A stretch of DNA of 51,954 nt from positions 1-51,954 of the forward strand of contig DAIDEE010000027.1 in assembly GCA_027308685.1 (NCBI GenBank), written 5' to 3'. Numbering within the stretch: the first letter of the stretch is position 1; every line of letters begins with the position of its first letter. This DNA is from Acidocella sp. (GTDB lineage: Bacteria > Pseudomonadota > Alphaproteobacteria > Acetobacterales > Acetobacteraceae). Below are positions 27,150 through 39,322 of the stretch, piece after piece. The notes under the pieces were generated by a model, which had not been told where the DNA came from, searched no databases, and saw nothing but the letters and a program-made list of their open reading frames with translations. A program made the position numbers and the translations under genes.

Positions 27150-28106
27150 TCAACCATTGCCGATAATCACGCCGGTAGCAAATACCAGAGCACCGCCCAG
27201 TGCCACCTGCAGGGTCGCGCGGATCGGCGAGGTATCCATGTATTTCCAGCGGATCCATGAAATCACCGAAAGTTCCACCACCACCACACAAAAAGCCACA
27301 ATCAGGGCGGTCCAGAGGTTGGGTATCAGGAATGGCAGTGTGTGCCCTAAACCACCGAGAGTGGTCATAGCCCCGGTGATGATGCCTCGGTAAATCGGGG
27401 TACCGCGGCCAGTGAGGCTGCCGTCATCCGACAAAGCTTCGGCAAAACCCATAGAAATGCCCGCCCCCAGCGAGGCAGCCAGCCCCACCACGAAGGCGGC
27501 CATCGGGTGGCCGGTTGAGAAGGCGGCTGCGAAAATGGGCGCCAATGTGGACACCGAGCCATCCATCAGCCCGACCAGGCCAGGTTGAACATATTGTAGC
27601 ACAAATAACCGCTCGGCGGTTTCATCCTCGGTCTTCAGCGCGTTATCGGTCAGGTTCTTGGCCTGCAATTCATCGGCCCGATGTTCGTGCGCCTGCTCGG
27701 CTTCAGCCAAATCGCCTAACAACTTACGAATCGAGGGGTCGGTGGAGCGCGAGGCGGCCAAACGGTAAAAATTCTGAGTTTCCCGCTCCATGCTCTCAGC
27801 CAACTGCCGGACATCAGCGATGCTGGGTTTTGGCAACTGCCACACAGCTTTGCGGGTGAGGAAGCCGCGCACATCCTGGCGGCGGATCAGCGGGATATGA
27901 TTGCCAAACTTGTTCTTATAAAGGTCGAGCAATTTATGCCGGTGCTCGCTCTCTTCGGCAGCCATTTCACTGAACACTGTTGACGATGCCGGGTACTCTT
28001 CGCGCAACCGCTCGGCGATGTCGTTATAAATACGACCGTCTTCTTCTTCGGAGCCTATGGCGAGCGCCAGCACCTCGCGCTCGGATAATTCTGAAAAATC
28101 TCGCAT
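27150..28106 (-). CDS. mbfA: Membrane-bound ferritin / iron exporter MbfA
   Basis: This 318-residue fusion has an N-terminal rubrerythrin/ferritin-like four-helix domain (residues 1-~155) with Glu/His ligand patterns in [34 protein letters not shown] and [14 protein letters not shown]. The C-terminal VIT1/CCC1-type domain (~165-318) has about five hydrophobic helices. This architecture defines MbfA of Rhizobiales, an iron(II) exporter that protects against iron and peroxide stress and is repressed by Irr or Fur-type regulators. AGGAG lies eight bases before the ATG. A Fur-like palindrome is at 28176-28194. Confidence 0.92.
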
Positions 28107-30133: not shown

Positions 30134-31533
30134 GCGGACAGGCTATTTTGAGCAGCGAGGAACCGTTGAAGCCGGGCCAGCAACGGGTGGCGCTGTCGGA
30201 TGTGATTTCACAAATCTCCGCCCTGGAACAGCAAAACCGGCTGGATGAGGCAGACAATCTGGCCGAGCGCGTGCTGGCGGCCGTGCCGCAGCACCCGCAC
30301 GTACTACATCTTTCGGGGATTATTTTGTATCGCCAAGGCAAAATCGATGAGGCCATCGCACGGATGGAAAAATCCATCGCGCTGGCACCAACTGTGGCGC
30401 TTTACCCACGCAATATGTGCGAAATTTACCGCGGTGCCGGGCGGTTGGATGATGCGGTGGCTTCAGGCAAGCGGGCCATTGAGCTGGCACCCGAGGACAG
30501 CCGCGCCTATTTCAATCTGGCACTCATTCATTATGAGCGTTTGGAGCTTGAGGAGTCGGTTCGCATTTGCGACCGCGCCCTGGCGTTGGACCCGAACTTT
30601 GCCGAAGCGCATTTTGAGCGCGCTGAGGCACTGCTGCTGGGCGGCAATATGGCCGAAGGCTGGAAGAGCTATGAATGGCGCTTCAAGCTGAAGCAGGCTG
30701 AAGGCATGCTGCCCAAAACCGACAAGCCACAATGGGATGGCAAGCCATTGCCTCCCGGCAAGTTGCTGCTGGTGGCAGACCAGGGGTTTGGTGATTGCAT
30801 TCAGTTTGGCCGTTTGATCCCGTGGGCCGCACAAATTGCACCTGCCCCGGTGTTGGCCTGCAGCGGCGATTTAACCCCGATTCTGCGGCAAATTCCGGGC
30901 ATCGGCCGCATGGTGACGCGCTGGGAACTGACCGGCGACTTCGACGCCTATATTCCGCTTTCTGGCTTACCACGTCTGGCCGGTATCGATTCTGGTAATG
31001 TGCCGTTGAGCGAGGGCTACATCACCCCAAACCCGGAATTAGTTGCGCATTGGGGGGCGCAGTTGGACCGCTTGCTGCCAAAGGGTAAACGCCGCATCGC
31101 GCTCGTTTGGGCAGGCCGACCTACCCATAAAAACGATAAAAAACGCACCCTGAAGCTGGCACAGTTTGCCCCATTGCTGGCGCGGGACGATATTGTGGTG
31201 GTGACGGTACAAAAAGGCGAGCAGATTGCTCAGGTCGGGGGTTATTTCGGCAACGCCCCGTTGGTAAATCTGGGTCCTGATATTGCTGATTTTGCCGACA
31301 CCATGGCCATTTTGAATAACGTTGAACGGTTAATCACCATTGATACCTCAGTGGCACATGTGGCGGGAGCCTGCGGTATTCCTGCCTCGATCGTGCTGCC
31401 TTACGCGCCGGACTGGCGCTGGCTACTCGGGCGCGATGATACCCCCTGGTATAAATCAGTCCGGCTATTTCGCCAGCAGCGCCCCTATGAATGGGGAGAC
31501 GTCATGGAGCGGGTGGCGCGGTCACTCGATTAG
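30130..31533 (+). CDS. TPR-repeat protein with glycosyltransferase family 9-like domain
   Basis: This 467-residue protein has N-terminal TPRs (residues ~20-190; DEADNLAERVLAAVPQHP, DEAIARMEKSIALAP, ESVRICDRALALDPNFAEAH). A GT-B-like domain follows: LLLVADQGFGDCIQFGRLIP, IALVWAGRPTHKNDKKR and ITIDTSVAHVAGACGIPASIVLPYAPDWRW. The last two regions match the donor site of GT9/GT41-like enzymes. Such TPR-GT fusions are common in Rhodospirillales and often modify surface glycans or proteins. It overlaps the sulfotransferase gene by four bases. The frame opens at 30097, but the coupled ATG at 30130 is the better start. Confidence 0.83.
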   Translation: MSGQAILSSEEPLKPGQQRVALSDVISQISALEQQNRLDEADNLAERVLAAVPQHPHVLHLSGIILYRQGKIDEAIARMEKSIALAPTVALYPRNMCEIYRGAGRLDDAVASGKRAIELAPEDSRAYFNLALIHYERLELEESVRICDRALALDPNFAEAHFERAEALLLGGNMAEGWKSYEWRFKLKQAEGMLPKTDKPQWDGKPLPPGKLLLVADQGFGDCIQFGRLIPWAAQIAPAPVLACSGDLTPILRQIPGIGRMVTRWELTGDFDAYIPLSGLPRLAGIDSGNVPLSEGYITPNPELVAHWGAQLDRLLPKGKRRIALVWAGRPTHKNDKKRTLKLAQFAPLLARDDIVVVTVQKGEQIAQVGGYFGNAPLVNLGPDIADFADTMAILNNVERLITIDTSVAHVAGACGIPASIVLPYAPDWRWLLGRDDTPWYKSVRLFRQQRPYEWGDVMERVARSLD

Positions 31534-31556
31534 GGCATCACGAAAAATTTTACCGC

Positions 31557-31576
31557 GACAGTGAAATTTTACTGTC
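31557..31576. repeat. 20-base near-perfect palindrome
   Basis: GACAGT-GAAATTTT-ACTGTC is symmetric across all but one position pair. It lies between the TPR-glycosyltransferase stop and a small ORF. No T-run follows, so an operator is likelier than a terminator. Confidence 0.5.
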
Positions 31577-31634
31577 ACAATTCATTAAAATGCGGCAACC
31601 TTATTTCCTAACGAGCGAAAAAGGGCATAGGCGC

Positions 31635-31781
31635 GTGAACCAATCGGAATACACCTCCAAACTTGATGAGTTCGACTACCTGATGAACGACCCGGAAGCC
31701 GACCCGGCACCTGAACGGGTATGGGAGGTGCTCGCCGCGCTATCGTTCCACGATCTGAGCCACGGCACTGCAGCTGAATAG
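31635..31781 (+). CDS. Small acidic protein of unknown function
   Basis: This 48-residue ORF begins with GTG (VNQSEYTSKLDEFDYLMNDP), with an AAGGG-type Shine-Dalgarno about nine bases upstream. It is acidic and predicted helical, and ends at WEVLAALSFHDLS plus a short tail. The frame is open further upstream (ATG at 31590, no ribosome site). I do not recognise a function, though the LDEFDYLMNDP...VWEVLAALS pattern looks like a conserved short protein rather than chance. It is convergent with the FkbM methyltransferase gene, four bases away. Confidence 0.55.
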   Translation: MNQSEYTSKLDEFDYLMNDPEADPAPERVWEVLAALSFHDLSHGTAAE

Positions 31782-31785
31782 CCCT

Positions 31786-32520
31786 TCAAGCCGGCGGTGT
31801 TGTCCGCATGGCGTGCAGGTCAAACCAGCCGGGCGGGCGGTTGTTCCAGGCTGTTAAAACCTCGTCTCGCTTGAGCCAAGCGCCAGGAATATCCTCGCCA
31901 AAGGGGCCCGATGAATGTTCCTTAAATGAATAAATCGCTTCGCCGCCGTCAAGTGTCATAATTTTACAATCAGCAAATACCTCCGCGACCGTGCGACCGG
32001 CAGTAAGTTTAAACGCCGCATATTGCATCGCTTCAAAATAGCTAAAAACACCCACCGTGTGTGCCTCGGCAGACAGATAAGGCGGCGCGATCTGATTGGC
32101 GGCAAGGTCTGCGAGGCACTGCAAATCATAGCCTTCGATATCGATTTTTATATACTCAGGCTGGCCATATTGCCGGATGATATCAGACAAACGCTGCACG
32201 GGCGCGGCAATGACTTCAAACTGATCATCGGGCAGCGTGGCGGTGTAGCCCACACGTTCACCCGCCGGTTGAAAGGTGCTGAGGACGGAATTACTGCGGT
32301 GCATATAAAATGGTAGTTGCCCGGGCTCGCCTGCAATGCCGGTATTGAGAACGACCAGACGCTGAGCTGCAATTTCAGCGTTAAATCGCATACGGACATA
32401 ATCGCACAGGATAGGATTGGCCTCGATGGCTACCACCCGGTAGCCTTTAGCAAGATAATAGGCGCAATCATCGCCATTATTCATTCCTACATCATAAACA
32501 AGCGGCAGTTGATTGGTCAT
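31786..32520 (-). CDS. FkbM-family methyltransferase
   Basis: This 244-residue SAM-dependent methyltransferase has the SAM-binding strand VYDVGMNNGDDCAYYLAKG at its start, VVAIEANPILC, and the FkbM-family motif IKIDIEGYDLQCLADL near residue 125. FkbM-type enzymes usually O-methylate sugars or hydroxyl groups of polyketides and glycans. Given the TPR-sulfotransferase and TPR-glycosyltransferase next door, a surface-glycan methylation role is plausible, though it is on the opposite strand. GGGAG lies eight bases before the ATG. Confidence 0.85.
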   Translation of the reverse strand: MTNQLPLVYDVGMNNGDDCAYYLAKGYRVVAIEANPILCDYVRMRFNAEIAAQRLVVLNTGIAGEPGQLPFYMHRSNSVLSTFQPAGERVGYTATLPDDQFEVIAAPVQRLSDIIRQYGQPEYIKIDIEGYDLQCLADLAANQIAPPYLSAEAHTVGVFSYFEAMQYAAFKLTAGRTVAEVFADCKIMTLDGGEAIYSFKEHSSGPFGEDIPGAWLKRDEVLTAWNNRPPGWFDLHAMRTTPPA

Positions 32521-32583
32521 GGTGATATCTCCCTGCCCTTTTATACCATTACGCGCAAAACCAGGTACAGATGTGCTGCGCCT

Positions 32584-33939
32584 TTAAATAAGCCGCAGCA
32601 GACTGAGCACAGCGGATACGCCCGCACATCCGGCACCAACATCCAACGAAATAACCGCGCCATGCCGACCGAGCTTGGCCAACATCACGGCTGCCAATGC
32701 CGCACCCGTCGCCTGCCCTAGTAAGCGAGAGGTAGCGATAACGCCGCTAGCAGCGCCGCTACGGGGCTTGGGTGCCGACATCATGATAATCCGATTATTC
32801 GGGGGCTGAAAAAACCCAAAGCCAAAACCACACAGCATCATGCGCCATATGACATTAATATAGCCCGTGTGCAGAGGAAGCAGGCTTAGCAAAATCAAAC
32901 CCGATGCCAGAAGGGTTAAACCTACAAAGTTCAAAATGGCCGCTGGATAAGCATCTGCCAGACGACCAGAAAAATTTGTAATGGCGGCAATGGTGAGTGG
33001 CCACGCCATAATCAACAAGCCAGTTTCGGTGACATTAAAGCCCAGTGTTGACTCAAAATAAAACGGTAACGCAACAAATGCCAGCATCTGTGCGGTAAAG
33101 CATGAGATGGACGTCGCAACGGATAACGCGAATATCGGCCGTTGCAATAAGTCAACCGGCATCATGGGGAACGGATTCGGCAGTTGCCTGAGCACTGACC
33201 AAGTAATGGCAGATAAAGAAGTTAGTAATTCAAGCAAAGAAACCCAAAGGGGTGTGGGATGGCTGAAACTCTGGATCGATGTAATTAGCATCGCAAATGC
33301 AATTGCGGTTAGGAATGCACTTAAAATATCAAAATGGCGCTTCATGAGATCGCTAGCCGGCAACGTACGATAGCCCATAATTAAGGAGACAATTCCCAGC
33401 GGCACATTTACCGTGAACAGCCACTGCCAGGAGGCAAAACTCAGGACAATGCCGGCAAAGCTGGGACCCATGGTGGAGCCGACCGCCACCACCATGGAAT
33501 TGATACCGATACCTCGGCCCAGCATATTATGTGGGAAAATATACCTGATAAGCGCGGTATTCACACTCATAATCCCGGCAGCACCAAAACCTTGCACAAT
33601 CCTCGCCATTGTGAGGGTGGTGATGGAGTTAGCCATCACGCAACCCACCGACGCCAAGGTAAAAACGGCAATGCCCGTTAAATAAACCTTTCGGTAGCCA
33701 TAGATTTCTGCAAGGGCCGCAAGTGGCAAAAGCAGCATTACGATCGCCAGTTGATAGGCGCTAACGATCGCCACGGAGTCGGTGGGGGTCGAATGAAAGT
33801 CGGTGGCGATGGTAGGCAAAGCAACGTTGGCAACCGTCTGGTCCATCACCGTTAAAATAACGGTAATAAGAACAGCAGCGAACGCAAGAGTCCGTTGTGG
33901 TTTGGGCAAACCATCAGCGTGGATTAAGCGGTCTGCCAA
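32584..33939 (-). CDS. MFS transporter, DHA2 (EmrB/QacA-like) drug exporter
   Basis: This 451-residue polytopic protein has ~12-14 hydrophobic helices. The first helix carries the DHA motif LTVMDQTVANVALPTI and the second half contains FFQPPNNRIIMMSAPKPRSGAASGV, typical of the EmrB/QacA group of proton-driven exporters. The start is probably TTG at 33939, with GGAAGGG 11 bases upstream; no ATG or GTG is in frame nearby. It lies 81 bases downstream of the aromatic-acid permease on the same strand and could export products or toxic intermediates of that cluster (inference). Confidence 0.87.
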   Translation of the reverse strand: MADRLIHADGLPKPQRTLAFAAVLITVILTVMDQTVANVALPTIATDFHSTPTDSVAIVSAYQLAIVMLLLPLAALAEIYGYRKVYLTGIAVFTLASVGCVMANSITTLTMARIVQGFGAAGIMSVNTALIRYIFPHNMLGRGIGINSMVVAVGSTMGPSFAGIVLSFASWQWLFTVNVPLGIVSLIMGYRTLPASDLMKRHFDILSAFLTAIAFAMLITSIQSFSHPTPLWVSLLELLTSLSAITWSVLRQLPNPFPMMPVDLLQRPIFALSVATSISCFTAQMLAFVALPFYFESTLGFNVTETGLLIMAWPLTIAAITNFSGRLADAYPAAILNFVGLTLLASGLILLSLLPLHTGYINVIWRMMLCGFGFGFFQPPNNRIIMMSAPKPRSGAASGVIATSRLLGQATGAALAAVMLAKLGRHGAVISLDVGAGCAGVSAVLSLLRLI

Positions 33940-34020
33940 GAATGCATCATCCCTTCCACTAAATCGTCAGACTGATGCACCCAAAGCATATGAGACTATT
34001 ACCAAGCCCAAGGGGGTGCC

Positions 34021-35376
34021 TTATTGAAACACCCGCAATCTCGCAAAGCCAACGCCGAGGGCTTTACCTGTCCAGATAAAGGTAATGGCGGCAAACCCGA
34101 TGGCGGCAATTGACAGCGGAATGACCGGCACCAGAAACAGGATAAATACGGAAGCATGATGCGCGATCAACTGTCCTGCCAGCAATGGGCCTCCAATAGC
34201 CCCGATGCGGCCTATGGAATGGGCAAAGCCTGCGCCTCGAGACCGGATAGCGGTGGGATATAGAATGCCAGCCGTTGAACTCATACCAACCTGCGCGCCG
34301 AGTACACTAAATCCGATCATGAAAACCAAAAAGTGAATCATCGCGGGTGACGTATCAGGTACCCCGATCAGTGTGGTGATGACGCACCCGATCGCCGCGT
34401 ATAGCGCCAATACCACCGGCCCTATAATGTCCAGCGCCGGGCCAATCAGCAGGCCACCTATCACACCCCCGACATAATAAAGAGACACTGTTTCAGCAGC
34501 CTGAGCCGGAGAAAAACCAATATCGCGCAGAACGATTGTCAGCCAGCTATTGATAAAGAAATTTACCAACATGATGGAAATAAACACCAGCCACAAAAAT
34601 GGCGTAACGAACTTCAGTTTCTCAACAAATAGAAATTTTATGGTAAATTTCTCAGCCTTGGCTTCGTTCAAAACAAAGGTGACGCCAGCAGGAATGAAAT
34701 GCTCTGGTGCAAGTTTACCTAGCCACTTGCGAATCTGAGCATCATTTTTGAGATCAAGAGCCAGAAATTTCAGAGATTCGGGAAGCATGAAATACACCAA
34801 TGGCAAGACCAGCAGCGGAATCAGCCCACCGACAAAAAATAGCTTATGCCATTCACCTCCGACTAATTTTGCGCTGATTACCCCTGGTAAAATGCCACCA
34901 AATGTAATGCCCATGAAGGCATAGGTGGTGAAGGCAGCGCGAATCTTCTTTGGTAGGAACTCAGCCATCATGGCGGTAACGTTGGGCAGCAAGCCACCCA
35001 AGCCGATGCCGGCCGCAAAGCGCAACCAAAGCAGCGAGGCAAAATCACCGGCCATACCGCAGCCGAAGCTCGCCACGCTAATAATAAAACAAGCGATGAC
35101 GATGCCACGCTTACGGCCGAAACGGTCGCCATATAAGCCACTCGTGAGTGCGCCAACCAGCATCCCCAAAAGTGCGGCGCTAAATACCGGTGCCATAGCC
35201 GATCGAACCATATGAAAGCTGGTAACAATGCCGGGGGCCGCGAGACCGACGACACCAAGGTCGTAACCATCGGACAACATGGCGGCAAAGCAGATGAAAA
35301 AAATAAGCATTGTAAACCGTCGAACCGGCAGATTATCAACCACCGTACCGATATTAAAACTATTCTCAGTATCCAT
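34021..35376 (-). CDS. MFS transporter, aromatic acid:H+ symporter type
   Basis: This 451-residue, 12-helix permease has the AAHS-family first-helix motif LSDGYDLGVVGLAAP (acidic DGYD), the cytoplasmic loop motif GDRFGRKRG between helices 2 and 3, and a second-half GMSSTAGILYPTAIRSRGAGFAHSIGRIGA segment. Relatives such as PcaK, BenK and GenK import 4-hydroxybenzoate, benzoate and gentisate. It lies 17 bases downstream of the EutA-like gene and so belongs to the bicupin/EutA unit. Substrate is inferred from family only. Confidence 0.88.
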   Translation of the reverse strand: MDTENSFNIGTVVDNLPVRRFTMLIFFICFAAMLSDGYDLGVVGLAAPGIVTSFHMVRSAMAPVFSAALLGMLVGALTSGLYGDRFGRKRGIVIACFIISVASFGCGMAGDFASLLWLRFAAGIGLGGLLPNVTAMMAEFLPKKIRAAFTTYAFMGITFGGILPGVISAKLVGGEWHKLFFVGGLIPLLVLPLVYFMLPESLKFLALDLKNDAQIRKWLGKLAPEHFIPAGVTFVLNEAKAEKFTIKFLFVEKLKFVTPFLWLVFISIMLVNFFINSWLTIVLRDIGFSPAQAAETVSLYYVGGVIGGLLIGPALDIIGPVVLALYAAIGCVITTLIGVPDTSPAMIHFLVFMIGFSVLGAQVGMSSTAGILYPTAIRSRGAGFAHSIGRIGAIGGPLLAGQLIAHHASVFILFLVPVIPLSIAAIGFAAITFIWTGKALGVGFARLRVFQ

Positions 35377-35393
35377 TTTTGGCCCCTATTATA

Positions 35394-36920
35394 TTATTGG
35401 TGATTTACGCTTTCCAGCTCGCTTCGCCCGACCGCGTTCGAAACTGGGAAGATCAATGATTTTATGACAACTGGAACCGAACCTGACCCTTCAAGCATTT
35501 TTCCAATATCAATAAAATCGAATTTTTTCGAAATAATACCATCGATCGAAACGACCCTACCTGGCAAGTGCAATTCCTCAGCAAAATGCAAACCAATCAA
35601 TCCACCGATATCGCAATCGCCTACCAGGATAATTGGCTGACCATCTGTGATCTGGCCAGCAAACCCGGCGGCGACACCGCGGCAAAATGCATCGAGGCGC
35701 GGGAATGTGGCAGAGCCTTGCCATGAATAGCCGAGCGCGATGGCCTGCGTGGCATCGATGACGCCTGAGCTTGCGATGGCGCGGTGGATGTCGGCGGCAA
35801 TTGCCTGTGCGTCGATATGTTCGGTTAACAGGCTTGACGTCAGCATGATGGTAGGCACGTTGCGAAGCGGCAGAAAATTCAGGTCGGAGACAAAAATCGT
35901 CGAACCGCTAACCTGCACAGTGTATTGCGATGCCCCGATCACCGTGGCGCGAATGCCATGAGCAACTGGCACCACTTCAGGCCCCCACGCTTTGACGTTT
36001 CGGAGGATATTTTGTGCCAGCCGCTGGCCGAGATCTCCGTGGCCGGCATCGGCGCGCTCATAGATATATTCTGAGACACCACCCGAAAAAGTAATGAATA
36101 CCGGAGGGGCCGAAGGTGTCAGCGCTGCAAGACGCAGCAGATCAGAAGTAGCCTGCCTCAAGGCGCCAGCTTTGATCACTTCCATCAAGGAATCGGTCAT
36201 AACGTTGGCCAGTACGTCAAGGTCGGCGTGACTGACAATAGCACCCAAAGTTAGCATGACCCCGCAAGCTTCGGCGATTTTACGCCCCGCCGGTTCCAGG
36301 CGTGTCAGGCGGCCAGCCTCATCCATCGCGATCAACCGCGCTCCAATATCGATTGCGGTAAATTCGCGTACCTCACCACGATAGCAGCGGGCCAGTTTGG
36401 TGGTGCCGCCGCCGATATCAATGTTCAACACGTCATGGGCTGCATCGATCGATAAGGCGACAGCGCCTGCGCCATGTGCCGCAAGAATGGCTTCCATACC
36501 ATCACCGGCGCTGACCGAGACAAATTTACCGGCCGCCTTTGCAAATATGTCAGCAATGGCACGCGCATTATTGCGCCTTACCGCCGTGCCGGTGAGAATC
36601 AGCGCCCCCGTGTCGATGGTATCAAAATCAATACCGGCGTGCCGGTACTGTGCCTCGAAGAAAAATTTCAACGCCGCCGTATCAATCTCATTGTCTCTTG
36701 TATAAGGGGTCAGCAGAATTTCGGATTCAAATAAAACGTCCCGATGAGCGACGATGTAATGCGAGTCTACTCTCTCCAGCGTGATGCGCGATAAAGCCAA
36801 ATGAGTGGTGGAAGACCCAATATCGATGCCAATGCTGATGATCTGAATTTCGTCTTCATCAACAATGCTACGCCGAGCATTGGTGAAAAACAGCCTACCG
36901 CCGACGGGATTATCCATCAT
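35394..36920 (-). CDS. EutA-like reactivating-factor ATPase (ASKHA fold)
   Basis: This ~508-residue protein is full-length for the EutA family, which reactivates B12-dependent ethanolamine ammonia-lyase by ATP-driven cofactor exchange. The ASKHA nucleotide motifs are present: IGIDIGSSTTHLAL (phosphate 1), VLNIDIGGGTTKLARC (phosphate 2) and ITFSGGVSEYIYERA (adenosine region). No eutB, eutC or other eut gene is nearby; instead it sits 31-44 bases after a bicupin gene and 17 before an aromatic-acid permease. It may serve another enzyme. A TTG at 36932 also opens the frame; the ATG at 36920 is the choice here, without a clear ribosome site. Confidence 0.84.
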   Translation of the reverse strand: MMDNPVGGRLFFTNARRSIVDEDEIQIISIGIDIGSSTTHLALSRITLERVDSHYIVAHRDVLFESEILLTPYTRDNEIDTAALKFFFEAQYRHAGIDFDTIDTGALILTGTAVRRNNARAIADIFAKAAGKFVSVSAGDGMEAILAAHGAGAVALSIDAAHDVLNIDIGGGTTKLARCYRGEVREFTAIDIGARLIAMDEAGRLTRLEPAGRKIAEACGVMLTLGAIVSHADLDVLANVMTDSLMEVIKAGALRQATSDLLRLAALTPSAPPVFITFSGGVSEYIYERADAGHGDLGQRLAQNILRNVKAWGPEVVPVAHGIRATVIGASQYTVQVSGSTIFVSDLNFLPLRNVPTIMLTSSLLTEHIDAQAIAADIHRAIASSGVIDATQAIALGYSWQGSATFPRLDAFCRGVAAGFAGQITDGQPIILVGDCDIGGLIGLHFAEELHLPGRVVSIDGIISKKFDFIDIGKMLEGSGSVPVVIKSLIFPVSNAVGRSELESVNHQ

Positions 36921-36963
36921 CGTGCCAAGCAAATATACGAAAATGAGCCTTCACGCTTACAGC

Positions 36964-38166
36964 CTAGACGGGCTTTTCATAAAGTTTCGGGTCCATGCGG
37001 CAGACCACACCTTCCTCCCTCAACCGGGCCTCATATTCCTGGCGGATGAAAGGGTCTTCCTGCCAATAGGGAATTGCGGAGCCGCCGTCTTGCAACTCCA
37101 TAGCCGTATAGTCAGTGTGCGGCGCACCTGGCGGGCCTGGGTCACGGCCTGGCGAGTGCGGGCCGAACCAGGCCGTGAGACGGAAGGGTTCCTTTGAAAC
37201 GCTAAAATGCTGATGGTACCAGCGGGCGCCACCGGGCGCAGCCGTCACCATACCGCCCGCTTCATAATCGAGCCGGCGTACCTCCGAGGCATTGCCGTCT
37301 TTCCAAGGATTCGGGCCAAGCCGCTCAGGCCAGGTGTAGGTATAGCCTTTACCTTTCACACAAATGAGCACCGCCGCCGAGGTGTGCGCATGGGCTTTCG
37401 AATAACGGCCATTTTCATGCTGCCCGATCCATAAATAAAAACTATTGTTGGTCATAAACGGCTCAACCCGGCGATAGCCTGGTGAGCGGCGGTTATCGAG
37501 CGGCAGATCACAATTCACAGCATCGGGTACCAAATTTGTACGGCGCATGGCGAGGCCACGCACCGGGTCTGGTTCAATATCATCACGCGGCTTGTAGAAA
37601 TCGTCAGCCTCGCTAAAGCGATCTTTGAAAACATAAGGGTTGTTGAAAATAGCTTCAACGTTATTGAGTGCGTTCATCACCACTGGCGCAGTGGTACCGC
37701 CGAGCAGTAAGGCCGGCGCGGAGGAACCATTAACGATCCGGTGCATGGCATTCATTGGGATGGAAAACAACGAACCAGTTTGCCATTCGAAAATATGCCG
37801 CTTTGACTCATTTTCCAGCCAGACCTCCGTGGTGCCACGGCCTTCCAGCACTAAATAAATTTCCTCGTACATGTGCTTTTCCGGATGCAGCGCACCAGAA
37901 CCTGGCACCTCCACCACATGACAGCCCCATTTACCTTCAGTACCAAAAAGTTGAACGTAGGTTCCCCGCCCGCCGGTGCGCTTCCACGGCGCTAAAGGGA
38001 GGTTGTGGGCTTTGTTGATACCAAGATCACGGAATACCGGGATACCCTCACTCGCCATAAATTCATCGTAAGGGGTGGCAAGTTTTTTAAATGTACCAAA
38101 CCCCGCCTTGGCAACTTCGCCCGTCGGTTCGTGCCAATGCTGTTGGCCTGTGACATCATGCGGCAT
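36964..38166 (-). CDS. Bicupin dioxygenase-like protein (gentisate 1,2-dioxygenase relative)
   Basis: This 400-residue protein has two cupin domains. In the first, His94, His98, Glu102 and His142 (HPEKHMYEE ... NAMHRIVN) could hold a metal. In the second, His259, His261 and His318 or His320 (AHAHTSAAV ... WYHQHFS) form a three-His pattern like gentisate dioxygenases. That family cleaves the aromatic ring next to a carboxyl group with Fe(II) and O2. Similarity to true gentisate dioxygenase is only partial, so the substrate is open. It leads a leftward unit with the EutA-like ATPase and an aromatic-acid permease. No downstream ring-fission hydrolase or isomerase is in the window. Confidence 0.75.
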   Translation of the reverse strand: MPHDVTGQQHWHEPTGEVAKAGFGTFKKLATPYDEFMASEGIPVFRDLGINKAHNLPLAPWKRTGGRGTYVQLFGTEGKWGCHVVEVPGSGALHPEKHMYEEIYLVLEGRGTTEVWLENESKRHIFEWQTGSLFSIPMNAMHRIVNGSSAPALLLGGTTAPVVMNALNNVEAIFNNPYVFKDRFSEADDFYKPRDDIEPDPVRGLAMRRTNLVPDAVNCDLPLDNRRSPGYRRVEPFMTNNSFYLWIGQHENGRYSKAHAHTSAAVLICVKGKGYTYTWPERLGPNPWKDGNASEVRRLDYEAGGMVTAAPGGARWYHQHFSVSKEPFRLTAWFGPHSPGRDPGPPGAPHTDYTAMELQDGGSAIPYWQEDPFIRQEYEARLREEGVVCRMDPKLYEKPV

Positions 38167-38340
38167 TTTTTATCCTTTTCCCATTATCCCGGGCTTTTAA
38201 GAGCCCCTCATCCCGTTTGTCCGATAAAGCCAAAAAAGCTGAAACGTATGGAGGTAACTCCGCGGTTCACAAATTTTGCAATTTTTACGGTAAATCGGGT
38301 TAATTTCTAAACTTGGCAGGTTTTTCCCAGTAACAATAAG

Positions 38341-38366
38341 TTCATTATACGAACATTTGTTATGAA
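38341..38366 (-). promoter_or_regulatory. Possible promoter/operator of the bicupin operon
   Basis: On the minus strand a perfect TATAAT (38349-38344) lies inside an imperfect inverted repeat with TTCAT/ATGAA arms. A TTGACA at 38395-38390 upstream has a weak GATAGT partner at 16-base spacing. The 38167-38453 gap between the bicupin start and tRNA-Cys is AT-rich and holds nothing else I can support. Confidence 0.35.
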
Positions 38367-38453
38367 AAACTATCAAACAGACAAAACCATGTCAAGCCTC
38401 GCCGCATCGCGAGCGATGTGATCAATGATAAAGCGATGTATTTACATGAATTT

Positions 38454-38527
38454 TGGAGGTCCGGGCCGGAATCGAACCGGCATACGCGGATTTGCAGTCC
38501 GCTACATCACCACTCTGCCACCGGACC
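38454..38527 (-). tRNA. tRNA-Cys (anticodon GCA)
   Basis: This 74-base tRNA has an acceptor stem GGTCCGG/CCGGACC, an anticodon stem GCGGA/TCCGC with loop CTGCAAA (anticodon GCA), the T-arm GCCGGTTCGATTCCGGC, a U discriminator and an encoded CCA. Confidence 0.97.
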
Positions 38528-38659
38528 GGTGATTGGGTTTCAGAAGGCGTATATCCCCGCCGCGACGTTGCGGGTCAAGTGTTATCGCCGGGGCGGTTGA
38601 GTTTCTGGCTAACGGTTCGCTATAAGGTGACAAGTGGCTCACCCCAGCAAAGGTTTCAG

Positions 38660-39322
38660 ATGACCGAATATTCCACCGATATGGCGACTGCCCGCGCCCA
38701 CATGGTAGATAGCCAGGTTCGCCCTAACCGGGTGAATGACCCAAGGGTGATCGCTGCTATGCGCAATTTGCCGCGTGAGGCCTTTGCACCGGCCGGGTGC
38801 AAACCCTATGCGGATGCCGATATTGCCTTGGACGGCGGACGGGTGATGCTGGCCCCCCTGACCATAGCGCGGCTGACACAGTTAGTTCTGGAGAGCAGTC
38901 CGGCGCATGTTTTGGTAATTGGAGCTGGCAGCGGCTACAGCGCCGCTATTTTGGCCAGCAGCGGCGCCGCAGTCACCGCGCTAGACGTCCCCGCGGCCGG
39001 CAACGCTGGCCCCGTGCCGGCCAATGTCGCGATGGTCACTGGCCCGCTGACCGCCGGATGGCCTGCAGCCGGACCCTATGAAGCCATTTTAATTGAGGGC
39101 GCCATACCGGAAATACCGGCCAATCTCATCACGCAACTTACCGCCGATGGTAAGGTGATCGCAATTTTGGCAGATAAATCAGATAGTGGCGGAAACCTTG
39201 CGTCGCTGGGGCGGGTTGTCGTGGCGCAGCCAAGCGGTGGCGGTTTTGCCCTAACCAGGAGGTTCGACTGCATGGCACCTAGCCTGCCAGCCTTCCAGCC
39301 TGCCCCCGCTTTTGTTTTTTGA
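38660..39322 (+). CDS. Protein-L-isoaspartate O-methyltransferase family
   Basis: This 220-residue SAM methyltransferase of the PCMT family methylates isoaspartyl residues in aged proteins. It shows MVDSQVRPNRVNDPRVIAAM, LPREAFAP, a shortened APLTIARLTQLVL region and the SAM loop VLVIGAGSGYSAAIL. The GAIPEIPANLI segment matches the family post-motif. The frame extends upstream across tRNA-Cys to 38453, but that is spurious; ATG 38660 follows AAAGG by seven bases. The gene precedes tolC, a layout common in alphaproteobacteria, where this diverged paralogue may differ in function. Confidence 0.85.
   Translation: MTEYSTDMATARAHMVDSQVRPNRVNDPRVIAAMRNLPREAFAPAGCKPYADADIALDGGRVMLAPLTIARLTQLVLESSPAHVLVIGAGSGYSAAILASSGAAVTALDVPAAGNAGPVPANVAMVTGPLTAGWPAAGPYEAILIEGAIPEIPANLITQLTADGKVIAILADKSDSGGNLASLGRVVVAQPSGGGFALTRRFDCMAPSLPAFQPAPAFVF

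Follow-up and report, generated by a model that had tools for sequence, protein, structure and literature searches.

The stretch analysed here is a window of 51,954 nucleotides (52 kb) from contig DAIDEE010000027.1 of an Acidocella sp. genome, and its minus strand carries a gene for a two-domain cupin protein (bicupin) followed by a gene for an ASKHA-type ATPase of the EutA family. Sequence comparison indicates that bicupin-linked EutA proteins of this kind form a branch of their own within the EutA family, which occurs and co-evolves with the bicupin, and not with EutB/EutC of ethanolamine ammonia-lyase, in three phyla. The EutA-bicupin pair is very probably a conserved functional unit; three EutA genes in a class survey, found alone, speak slightly against it. 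A preliminary description of the window had suggested that the ATPase does not act on EutBC and that the bicupin is its likely client, and this view gained ground as the pair proved to be tied across three phyla. No description of the pair was found in the literature searched, which leaves most subscription journals outside its coverage.

Linkage of EutA-like and bicupin genes

The three EutA proteins of the source genome served as the query against 84,980 species genomes, and the best 80 of at least 506 confirmed relatives were analysed; many of the surveyed records are metagenome-assembled genomes (MAGs) and possibly incomplete. A bicupin was counted as adjacent when its gene lay on the same strand within 350 bp of the EutA-like gene, overlapping open reading frames (ORFs) being admitted. 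By this rule an adjacent bicupin is present in 63 of the 80 best loci, from three phyla, a proportion that describes near relatives since the loci were chosen with the source genome's own EutAs as query. Counted per gene, 74 of 104 EutA-like genes (the source genome's three included) adjoin a same-strand bicupin, which lies upstream in 67 and downstream in seven (66 and 8 by the rule; L043, an equal-distance tie, belongs with the upstream cases). The 17 loci without an adjacent bicupin include four at contig ends (L019, L025, L027, L047), two in which the miss is an artefact of the ORF or frame (L064, L066) and six with a same-strand bicupin 1.3-3 kb away (L018, L021, L023, L024, L088, L089). 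Neither eutB nor eutC was found in any of the 80 best loci (4-21 kb each), and EutB was missing from 36 of the 44 carrier genomes tested, these being 44 of the 80 scan genomes. The list of EutA ORFs (105) and the list of cupin ORFs (140) have no member in common, i.e. no EutA-cupin fusion was found.

The distribution of the proteins was also surveyed in 289 Alphaproteobacteria genomes, where EutA was detected with Pfam PF06277, which is independent of the scan query (above 350 bits taken as full length), and the bicupin with a profile built from the scan (match at E 1e-40, no more than six candidates per genome being scored). Six of these genomes (G000, G104, G113, G122, G210 and G216) have a full-length EutA, and the bicupin occurs in the same six and in G226, where an EutA fragment cut by a contig edge adjoins it (Fisher p 9e-12 for EutA with bicupin). 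EutB was detected in 24 of the 289 genomes, and its sole overlap with the six EutA genomes is G000 (Fisher p 0.41), so that full-length EutA was not detected in the other 23 EutB genomes, nor EutB in five of the six EutA genomes. Because all six carry the bicupin and five lack EutB, pathway prediction is misled by the name ethanolamine ammonia-lyase reactivase, which database records give to bicupin-linked EutAs, for example in Phyllobacterium. A same-strand bicupin lies less than 300 bp from 12 of the 16 EutA genes in the six genomes. No eutB or eutC is found near the other four, and the lone EutA-like genes occur in genomes that have bicupins elsewhere.

In 398 Pseudomonadota genomes (E 1e-30), EutA was found in six: four with canonical proteins (555-590 bits), the source genome, and G499 (229 bits). 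The EutA of G499 (locus L129) is divergent and stands beside a divergent EutB (39% identity), the two perhaps belonging to a lyase for another substrate. EutB matches of a further kind, at about 475 bits in frames of 787-802 aa, were seen in G312, G314 and G322 (the genomes of L034, L036 and L044) and may be divergent EutB-EutC fusions.

A distinct branch within the EutA family

The EutA-like protein of the window matches PF06277 with 369 bits (cut-off 27) over profile positions 2-474 of 475, i.e. over its full length, and falls under the cut-off of all four NCBIfam EutA models that it matched (best 320 vs 598). Eight canonical EutAs served as controls, from E. coli K-12, two haloarchaea and five phylum-survey loci; eutB adjoins eutA in seven of them, and in E. 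coli K-12 a cryptic prophage intervenes. None of the eight has a bicupin in the stretches examined, which span about 1.5 kb per side for five of them.

In a quick tree, which gave a long-branch warning, the eight canonical EutAs are split from 109 others, including that of the window, by a branch with 97% support in the Shimodaira-Hasegawa-like approximate likelihood ratio test (SH-aLRT). The non-canonical side consists of the groups S1 (65 rows, with the window EutA), S2a (23 rows) and S2b (21 rows, support 81). Most S1 rows share the N-terminal motif GGRxFFxNxxRSxxxEDEI, and most S2a rows have N-termini resembling HDLDFDHEH.

The ASKHA phosphate and adenosine motifs are intact in the EutA-like proteins, several positions of the nucleotide motifs differing from those of ordinary EutA. 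Of 44 positions invariant in 62 bicupin-linked EutAs, 35 are also invariant in seven canonical EutAs; the position after the second phosphate motif is a lysine (K179) in 62/62 bicupin-linked proteins and an asparagine in 7/7 canonical ones. A C-terminal tail with 10-29 His after a KSL(L/V/I)F motif is present in 11 of 104 EutA-likes (threshold at least 8 His), and 37 of the 104 have an HxH ahead of the first motif, some of them because of over-extended starts. The canonical EutA ends compared have neither the His-rich tail nor the upstream HxH (0/7 for HxH). The EutA-like alignment contains no Cys that is invariant or reaches 90% conservation. The AlphaFold2 (AF2) model of the EutA-like protein has a predicted local distance difference test score (pLDDT) of 82.9, and its Foldseek matches are ASKHA proteins, the first being 1hux.

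The EutA and bicupin distances are correlated over 72 pairs (Mantel r 0.83, maximum of 2000 permutations 0.22), a correlation that leaves out the pairs L069 and L070 and in which shared species history remains. In six loci with two types of pair (L017, L026, L029, L038, L045, L050), as in the source genome, an S1 EutA stands beside an S1 bicupin and an EutA of another type beside a bicupin of another type.

Further copies in the source genome

The source genome (2.86 Mb in 73 contigs) has three EutA-bicupin pairs in all. Contig C8 holds two more EutA-like genes next to one another, both with a bicupin after them, and both paralogues fall in group S2b of the quick tree. The preliminary description had called the EutA of the window an orphan. 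No eut gene (eutB/eutC) is present in the window; in the genome eutBC are found on C8, with EutB at 111 kb, about 32 kb beyond the pairs, and no EutA adjoins them. It had also said what would speak against its reading, and of this only the presence of eutBC elsewhere in the genome was observed; the window EutA does not cluster with ordinary EutA, lying across the 97% branch, and the pair, far from being unique to one strain, is widespread.

Around the C8 pairs lie further genes for an Amidohydro_2 protein, a HpcH/HpaI aldolase, an alpha/beta hydrolase, a Rieske oxygenase and a molybdenum-hydroxylase-like pair, together with parts of a tripartite tricarboxylate transporter, an IclR regulator (and a second one judged by eye) and NMT1-like proteins, two recognised by Pfam and a third by clustering. 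This last kind of protein includes 4,5-dihydroxyphthalate decarboxylase. From its composition, the gene set around the pairs looks like one for aromatic-acid catabolism.

Two adjoining single-cupin genes, the first with a His-rich N-terminus, were also noticed in the C8 region (L009:7774-8988); their relatives occur in seven and eight loci.

The bicupin and its putative metal site

The AF2 model of the bicupin (pLDDT 92.6) consists of two groups of strands, and its Foldseek matches include bicupins. A putative metal site can be recognised from the alignment in the C-terminal cupin, H259xH261 ... H318-Q-H320, within the pattern Y.K.HxH ... P..WxHQH; the N-terminal cupin has no conserved HxH. 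Residues were counted in the 115 bicupins scoring at least 380 out of 140 matches (25 lower ones being dropped). Both histidines are present at 259/261 in 110 of the 115 and at 318/320 in 114, and the position of the cupin Glu is Ala in all 49 S1 bicupins. R227, R329, W279 and E127 are invariant in the 68 EutA-adjacent bicupins. By the adjacency rule 42 of the 115 have no adjoining EutA (41 when L043 is set right).

The bicupin profile matches gentisate 1,2-dioxygenase 3bu7 at E 1.7e-7. A nominally better match, 8pjs, was discounted as a repeat protein aligned over six weak stretches. No NCBIfam model matches the bicupin of the window, and one of its paralogues reaches 41.7 of 650 bits against the model of the 5-aminosalicylate dioxygenase MabB.

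Proposed role of the pair

In the mechanism considered here, a Rieske system and a decarboxylase would make a dihydroxylated aromatic acid, the ring of which would be cleaved by the bicupin acting as a metal-dependent, probably Fe(II), dioxygenase. The EutA-like ATPase would bind the bicupin and open it with ATP, upon which metal could be inserted, or lost or oxidised metal replaced; this is the least certain step. The His-rich tails of one EutA-like subclade might be the metal-donating part. The analogy is with EutA itself, which swaps damaged cobalamin in ethanolamine ammonia-lyase, a bare metal here taking the place of B12. In favour of it are the linkage, co-occurrence and co-evolution of the two genes independently of EutB/EutC, the intact ASKHA motifs, the His-rich tails, the conserved histidines of the bicupin, the profile match to 3bu7 and the surrounding genes: relatives (tblastn, E 1e-15) of the NMT1/dihydroxyphthalate-decarboxylase-like protein occur within 22 of the 80 loci, of TctA within 20, of the Rieske oxygenase within 19 and of the class II aldolase within 16. 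The preliminary description had likewise proposed that the ATPase may repair or activate the Fe-dependent cupin; such a role on a metal-dependent cupin is consistent with the sequence evidence, and we infer with roughly even confidence that the ATPase loads or reactivates the metal centre of the bicupin in aromatic-acid catabolism. A broader reading is more tentative: the proteins may be ASKHA ATPases of a class not described before, metallochaperone-reactivases by which the non-haem metal centres of bicupin dioxygenases are maintained, in which the fold of a B12 reactivase would have been turned to the repair of mononuclear metal sites behind humic-type aromatic-acid degradation in freshwater, soil and marine bacteria.

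Several observations weigh against metal-centre maintenance of a ring-cleaving bicupin. As to the pairing, three of the 16 class-survey EutAs (G104:C19, G210:C3 and G216:C3; loci L142, L143 and L144) have no bicupin within 6-8 kb on each side, the only bicupin near the EutA of G216:C13 is convergent and truncated where the contig ends, and no bicupin was found in the stretch examined at five of the 80 scan loci (L032, L055, L076, L083, L090). As to the metal, the window EutA has no His-rich tail, such tails belonging mainly to one subclade; H259xH261 is replaced by YxP in five EutA-adjacent bicupins (L054, L060, L062, L068, L074); and a Ni/Co transporter and NikR adjoin the pair only in two Phyllobacterium loci of 80. 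As to the reaction, it is the C-terminal cupin of 3bu7 that aligns with the N-terminal cupin of the bicupin, and a profile of the C-terminal cupin alone reaches 3bu7 weakly (E 0.003). The Foldseek matches of the model are MncA, oxalate decarboxylase, vicilins and quercetinase, with a template modelling (TM) score of about 0.45, and matches of this level to mixed cupins set the fold class and leave the reaction unfixed. The counts of neighbouring genes, finally, were made without a background control.

Acetone/acetophenone carboxylase and 5-oxoprolinase have an ASKHA subunit that phosphorylates the substrate and a metal subunit that does the subsequent chemistry, and the EutA-like protein and the bicupin could in the same way be subunits of one ATP-dependent enzyme. 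The co-occurrence of the two at genome level, their co-evolution and the intact ASKHA ATP site all agree with this. However, two to four bicupins accompany a single EutA-like gene in six loci (L072, L075, L077, L079, L084, L087), the 41-42 bicupins without an adjoining EutA have to be accounted for, and some EutAs stand alone; the several bicupins per EutA and the lone EutAs are more easily reconciled with a shared helper than with a fixed subunit. In sequence, EutA is moreover the nearest family, no hydantoinase-type family being matched at E 0.001. A two-subunit enzyme appears unlikely.

The ATPase could still be a helper of the metal centre if the bicupin were another cupin enzyme, such as an isomerase, a decarboxylase or a hydrolase of the ring-cleavage product. 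The presence of oxalate decarboxylase and MncA among the Foldseek neighbours would suit such an enzyme, and the dioxygenase assignment draws on a weak profile match and on the gene neighbours. The four-His site, with the Glu replaced and with a spacing like that of the gentisate dioxygenase motif in 3bu7, argues the other way, and we consider a bicupin of this kind quite unlikely.

It is improbable that the EutA-like protein is an activator of electron transfer or conformational change, of the kind of the 2-hydroxyacyl-CoA dehydratase activator and BadF/BadG, acting on the bicupin or on a neighbouring Rieske oxygenase. The top Foldseek match is indeed component A of 2-hydroxyglutaryl-CoA dehydratase (1hux; TM 0.58 relative to the target and 0.32 relative to the query), and one paralogue has a BcrAD_BadFG match below the cut-off, but Ppx/GppA, MreB and PilM match the model about equally well, and since the EutA-likes have no conserved Cys the iron-sulphur cluster of the activator would be missing.

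That the protein is a true EutA which serves EutBC or some other B12 enzyme in trans, and has the bicupin beside it by accident, would suit the eutBC without adjoining eutA in the source genome and the PF06277 membership, but it is highly improbable and largely refuted for most carriers by the rarity of EutB among them, by the EutB genomes without full-length EutA, by the separate branch and by the EutBC of Acinetobacter baumannii, which works without EutA (PMC9426561). Reactivation of ethanolamine ammonia-lyase was rejected as the role of the branch on the absence of EutB, the absence of eutB/eutC from the 80 loci and the separate branch, and the EutA-like protein of the window is very unlikely to be such a reactivase. 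The preliminary description had also considered a different lyase, for an aromatic or amine substrate, as the partner; another B12 lyase in this place is unlikely, since it is the bicupin that recurs beside the ATPase.

If the proposed maintenance of the metal centre is true, the pair would amount to a system in which ATP drives the repair of a metal centre in a cupin. This would also explain why the gene pair recurs in likely degraders of aromatic and humic matter such as SAR202, Limnohabitans and rhizobia. Limnohabitans is a likely degrader of such matter on account of its ecology. The record of L041 names the MAG SAR202-VII-2, for which numerous dioxygenases of the gentisate type, and no complete pathway, have been described (PMC6123686).

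Gene layout and neighbouring genes

The genes of the window locus are listed in Table 1. The three minus-strand genes and the DHA2-like exporter gene downstream were confirmed as first described, with intergenic gaps of 43 bp between bicupin and EutA-like gene (counted to the ATG at 36920), 17 bp between EutA-like gene and permease gene and 81 bp between the two permease genes. The 512-aa frame of the EutA-like gene opens with a TTG; ATG codons at 36920 and 36917 are alternative starts, and one of these two is the probable start. The ATG at 36917 is suggested because the N-terminus then equals that of the 85% identical Acidocella protein in L011. Promoter and terminator scans of 31500-38700 gave no excess over shuffled sequence (8 vs 7.8 and 10 vs 9.5).

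Table 1. Genes of the EutA-bicupin locus in the window
Gene product	Position	Strand	Remarks
Bicupin	36964-38166	minus	400 aa; first gene of pair; Cupin_2 and Cupin_1 over Pfam cut-off
EutA-like ASKHA ATPase	35394-36932	minus	512 aa from TTG; Pfam EutA PF06277; clade S1
AAHS-like MFS permease	34021-35376	minus	MFS_1; local operon member outside the conserved pair
DHA2-like MFS exporter	32584-33939	minus	MFS_1; 81 bp downstream of AAHS-like permease; close relative in L011 only (best 80 loci)

The best NCBIfam model for the AAHS-like permease is AAHS TIGR00895 (310 bits, below the cut-off of 418.55), and the second MFS protein has a DHA2-like match (187.7 bits, below 230.2). All four genes are present in L011, an Acidocella MAG, with identities of 85% for the EutA, 93-94% for the bicupin and 87% and 83% for the permeases, and with the pair in 63 of the 80 loci the arrangement is more than chance. 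The same cannot be said of the permeases as parts of the module. At E 1e-15 the AAHS protein and the DHA2 protein have relatives in two of the 80 loci each, one of the latter at 26% identity, and both were rejected as conserved members; two further MFS groups occur in five of the 80 loci each.

In Phyllobacterium, genes for a Rieske oxygenase, a ferredoxin, a class II aldolase, the bicupin and EutA are grouped, and a LigK-like aldolase and an amidohydrolase are encoded close by. Nickel or cobalt was considered as the bicupin metal from NixA/NikR beside the Phyllobacterium pair, a weak candidate given that only two Phyllobacterium loci of the 80 have this arrangement.

Other features of individual loci were noted. 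The bicupins with YxP keep H318/H320, and L054, L060 and L062 carry a second, intact bicupin. The EutA-likes of L018, L021, L023 and L024 are His-tailed members of S2b, each followed on the same strand, some 3 kb downstream, by a bicupin gene, and in L018 and L021 an ABC permease, in L021 also an ABC ATPase, is encoded between the two. A metal-type ABC transporter in the operons of these four loci was considered as a clue to the metal and set aside as uninformative on it, the best NCBIfam models in L021 being for aminoethylphosphonate/polyamine and all below cut-off. Two deltaproteobacterial EutA-likes without a bicupin (L083:7314-9676, L090:4193-6444) are followed by a short protein that by eye resembles a hydrolase of the metallo-beta-lactamase fold. 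In the window itself, positions 27150-28106 encode a protein whose N-terminus, as judged by eye, resembles rubrerythrin and whose membrane part resembles VIT1.

Comparison with known systems

The bicupin-linked proteins resemble EutA (PF06277) in the family match over the whole length, in the ASKHA ATP motifs and in most of the invariant positions; they differ in having a bicupin as partner in place of EutBC and in forming a separate branch. The residues before the first motif mostly number 28-60 (14-25 in a few Chloroflexota rows) compared with 9-22 in canonical EutA, and most rows read IGSS, IGGGTTK and SGGVS where canonical EutA has IGTT, IGGGTxN and SGGVG. The EutA of the compatible-solute literature we take to be a different protein.

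With the 2-hydroxyacyl-CoA dehydratase activator (1hux) the EutA-likes share the ASKHA fold and the proposed part of an ATP-dependent helper of a metalloenzyme, but they are without the conserved Cys for an iron-sulphur cluster. The bicupin in turn resembles gentisate 1,2-dioxygenase in its double-cupin build, in the 3bu7 profile match and in an HxH ... P..WxHxH-like motif, from which in S1 the cupin Glu is absent. The metal site of gentisate 1,2-dioxygenase is in the N-terminal cupin, whereas the conserved site of the EutA-linked bicupin is in the C-terminal one.

The metallochaperones HypB, UreG and CobW (G3E) are P-loop GTPases in which His-rich tails are typical. The tails found in 11 of the 104 EutA-likes, and by analogy an NTP-driven handling of metal, recall these proteins, but the protein described here is an ASKHA ATPase.

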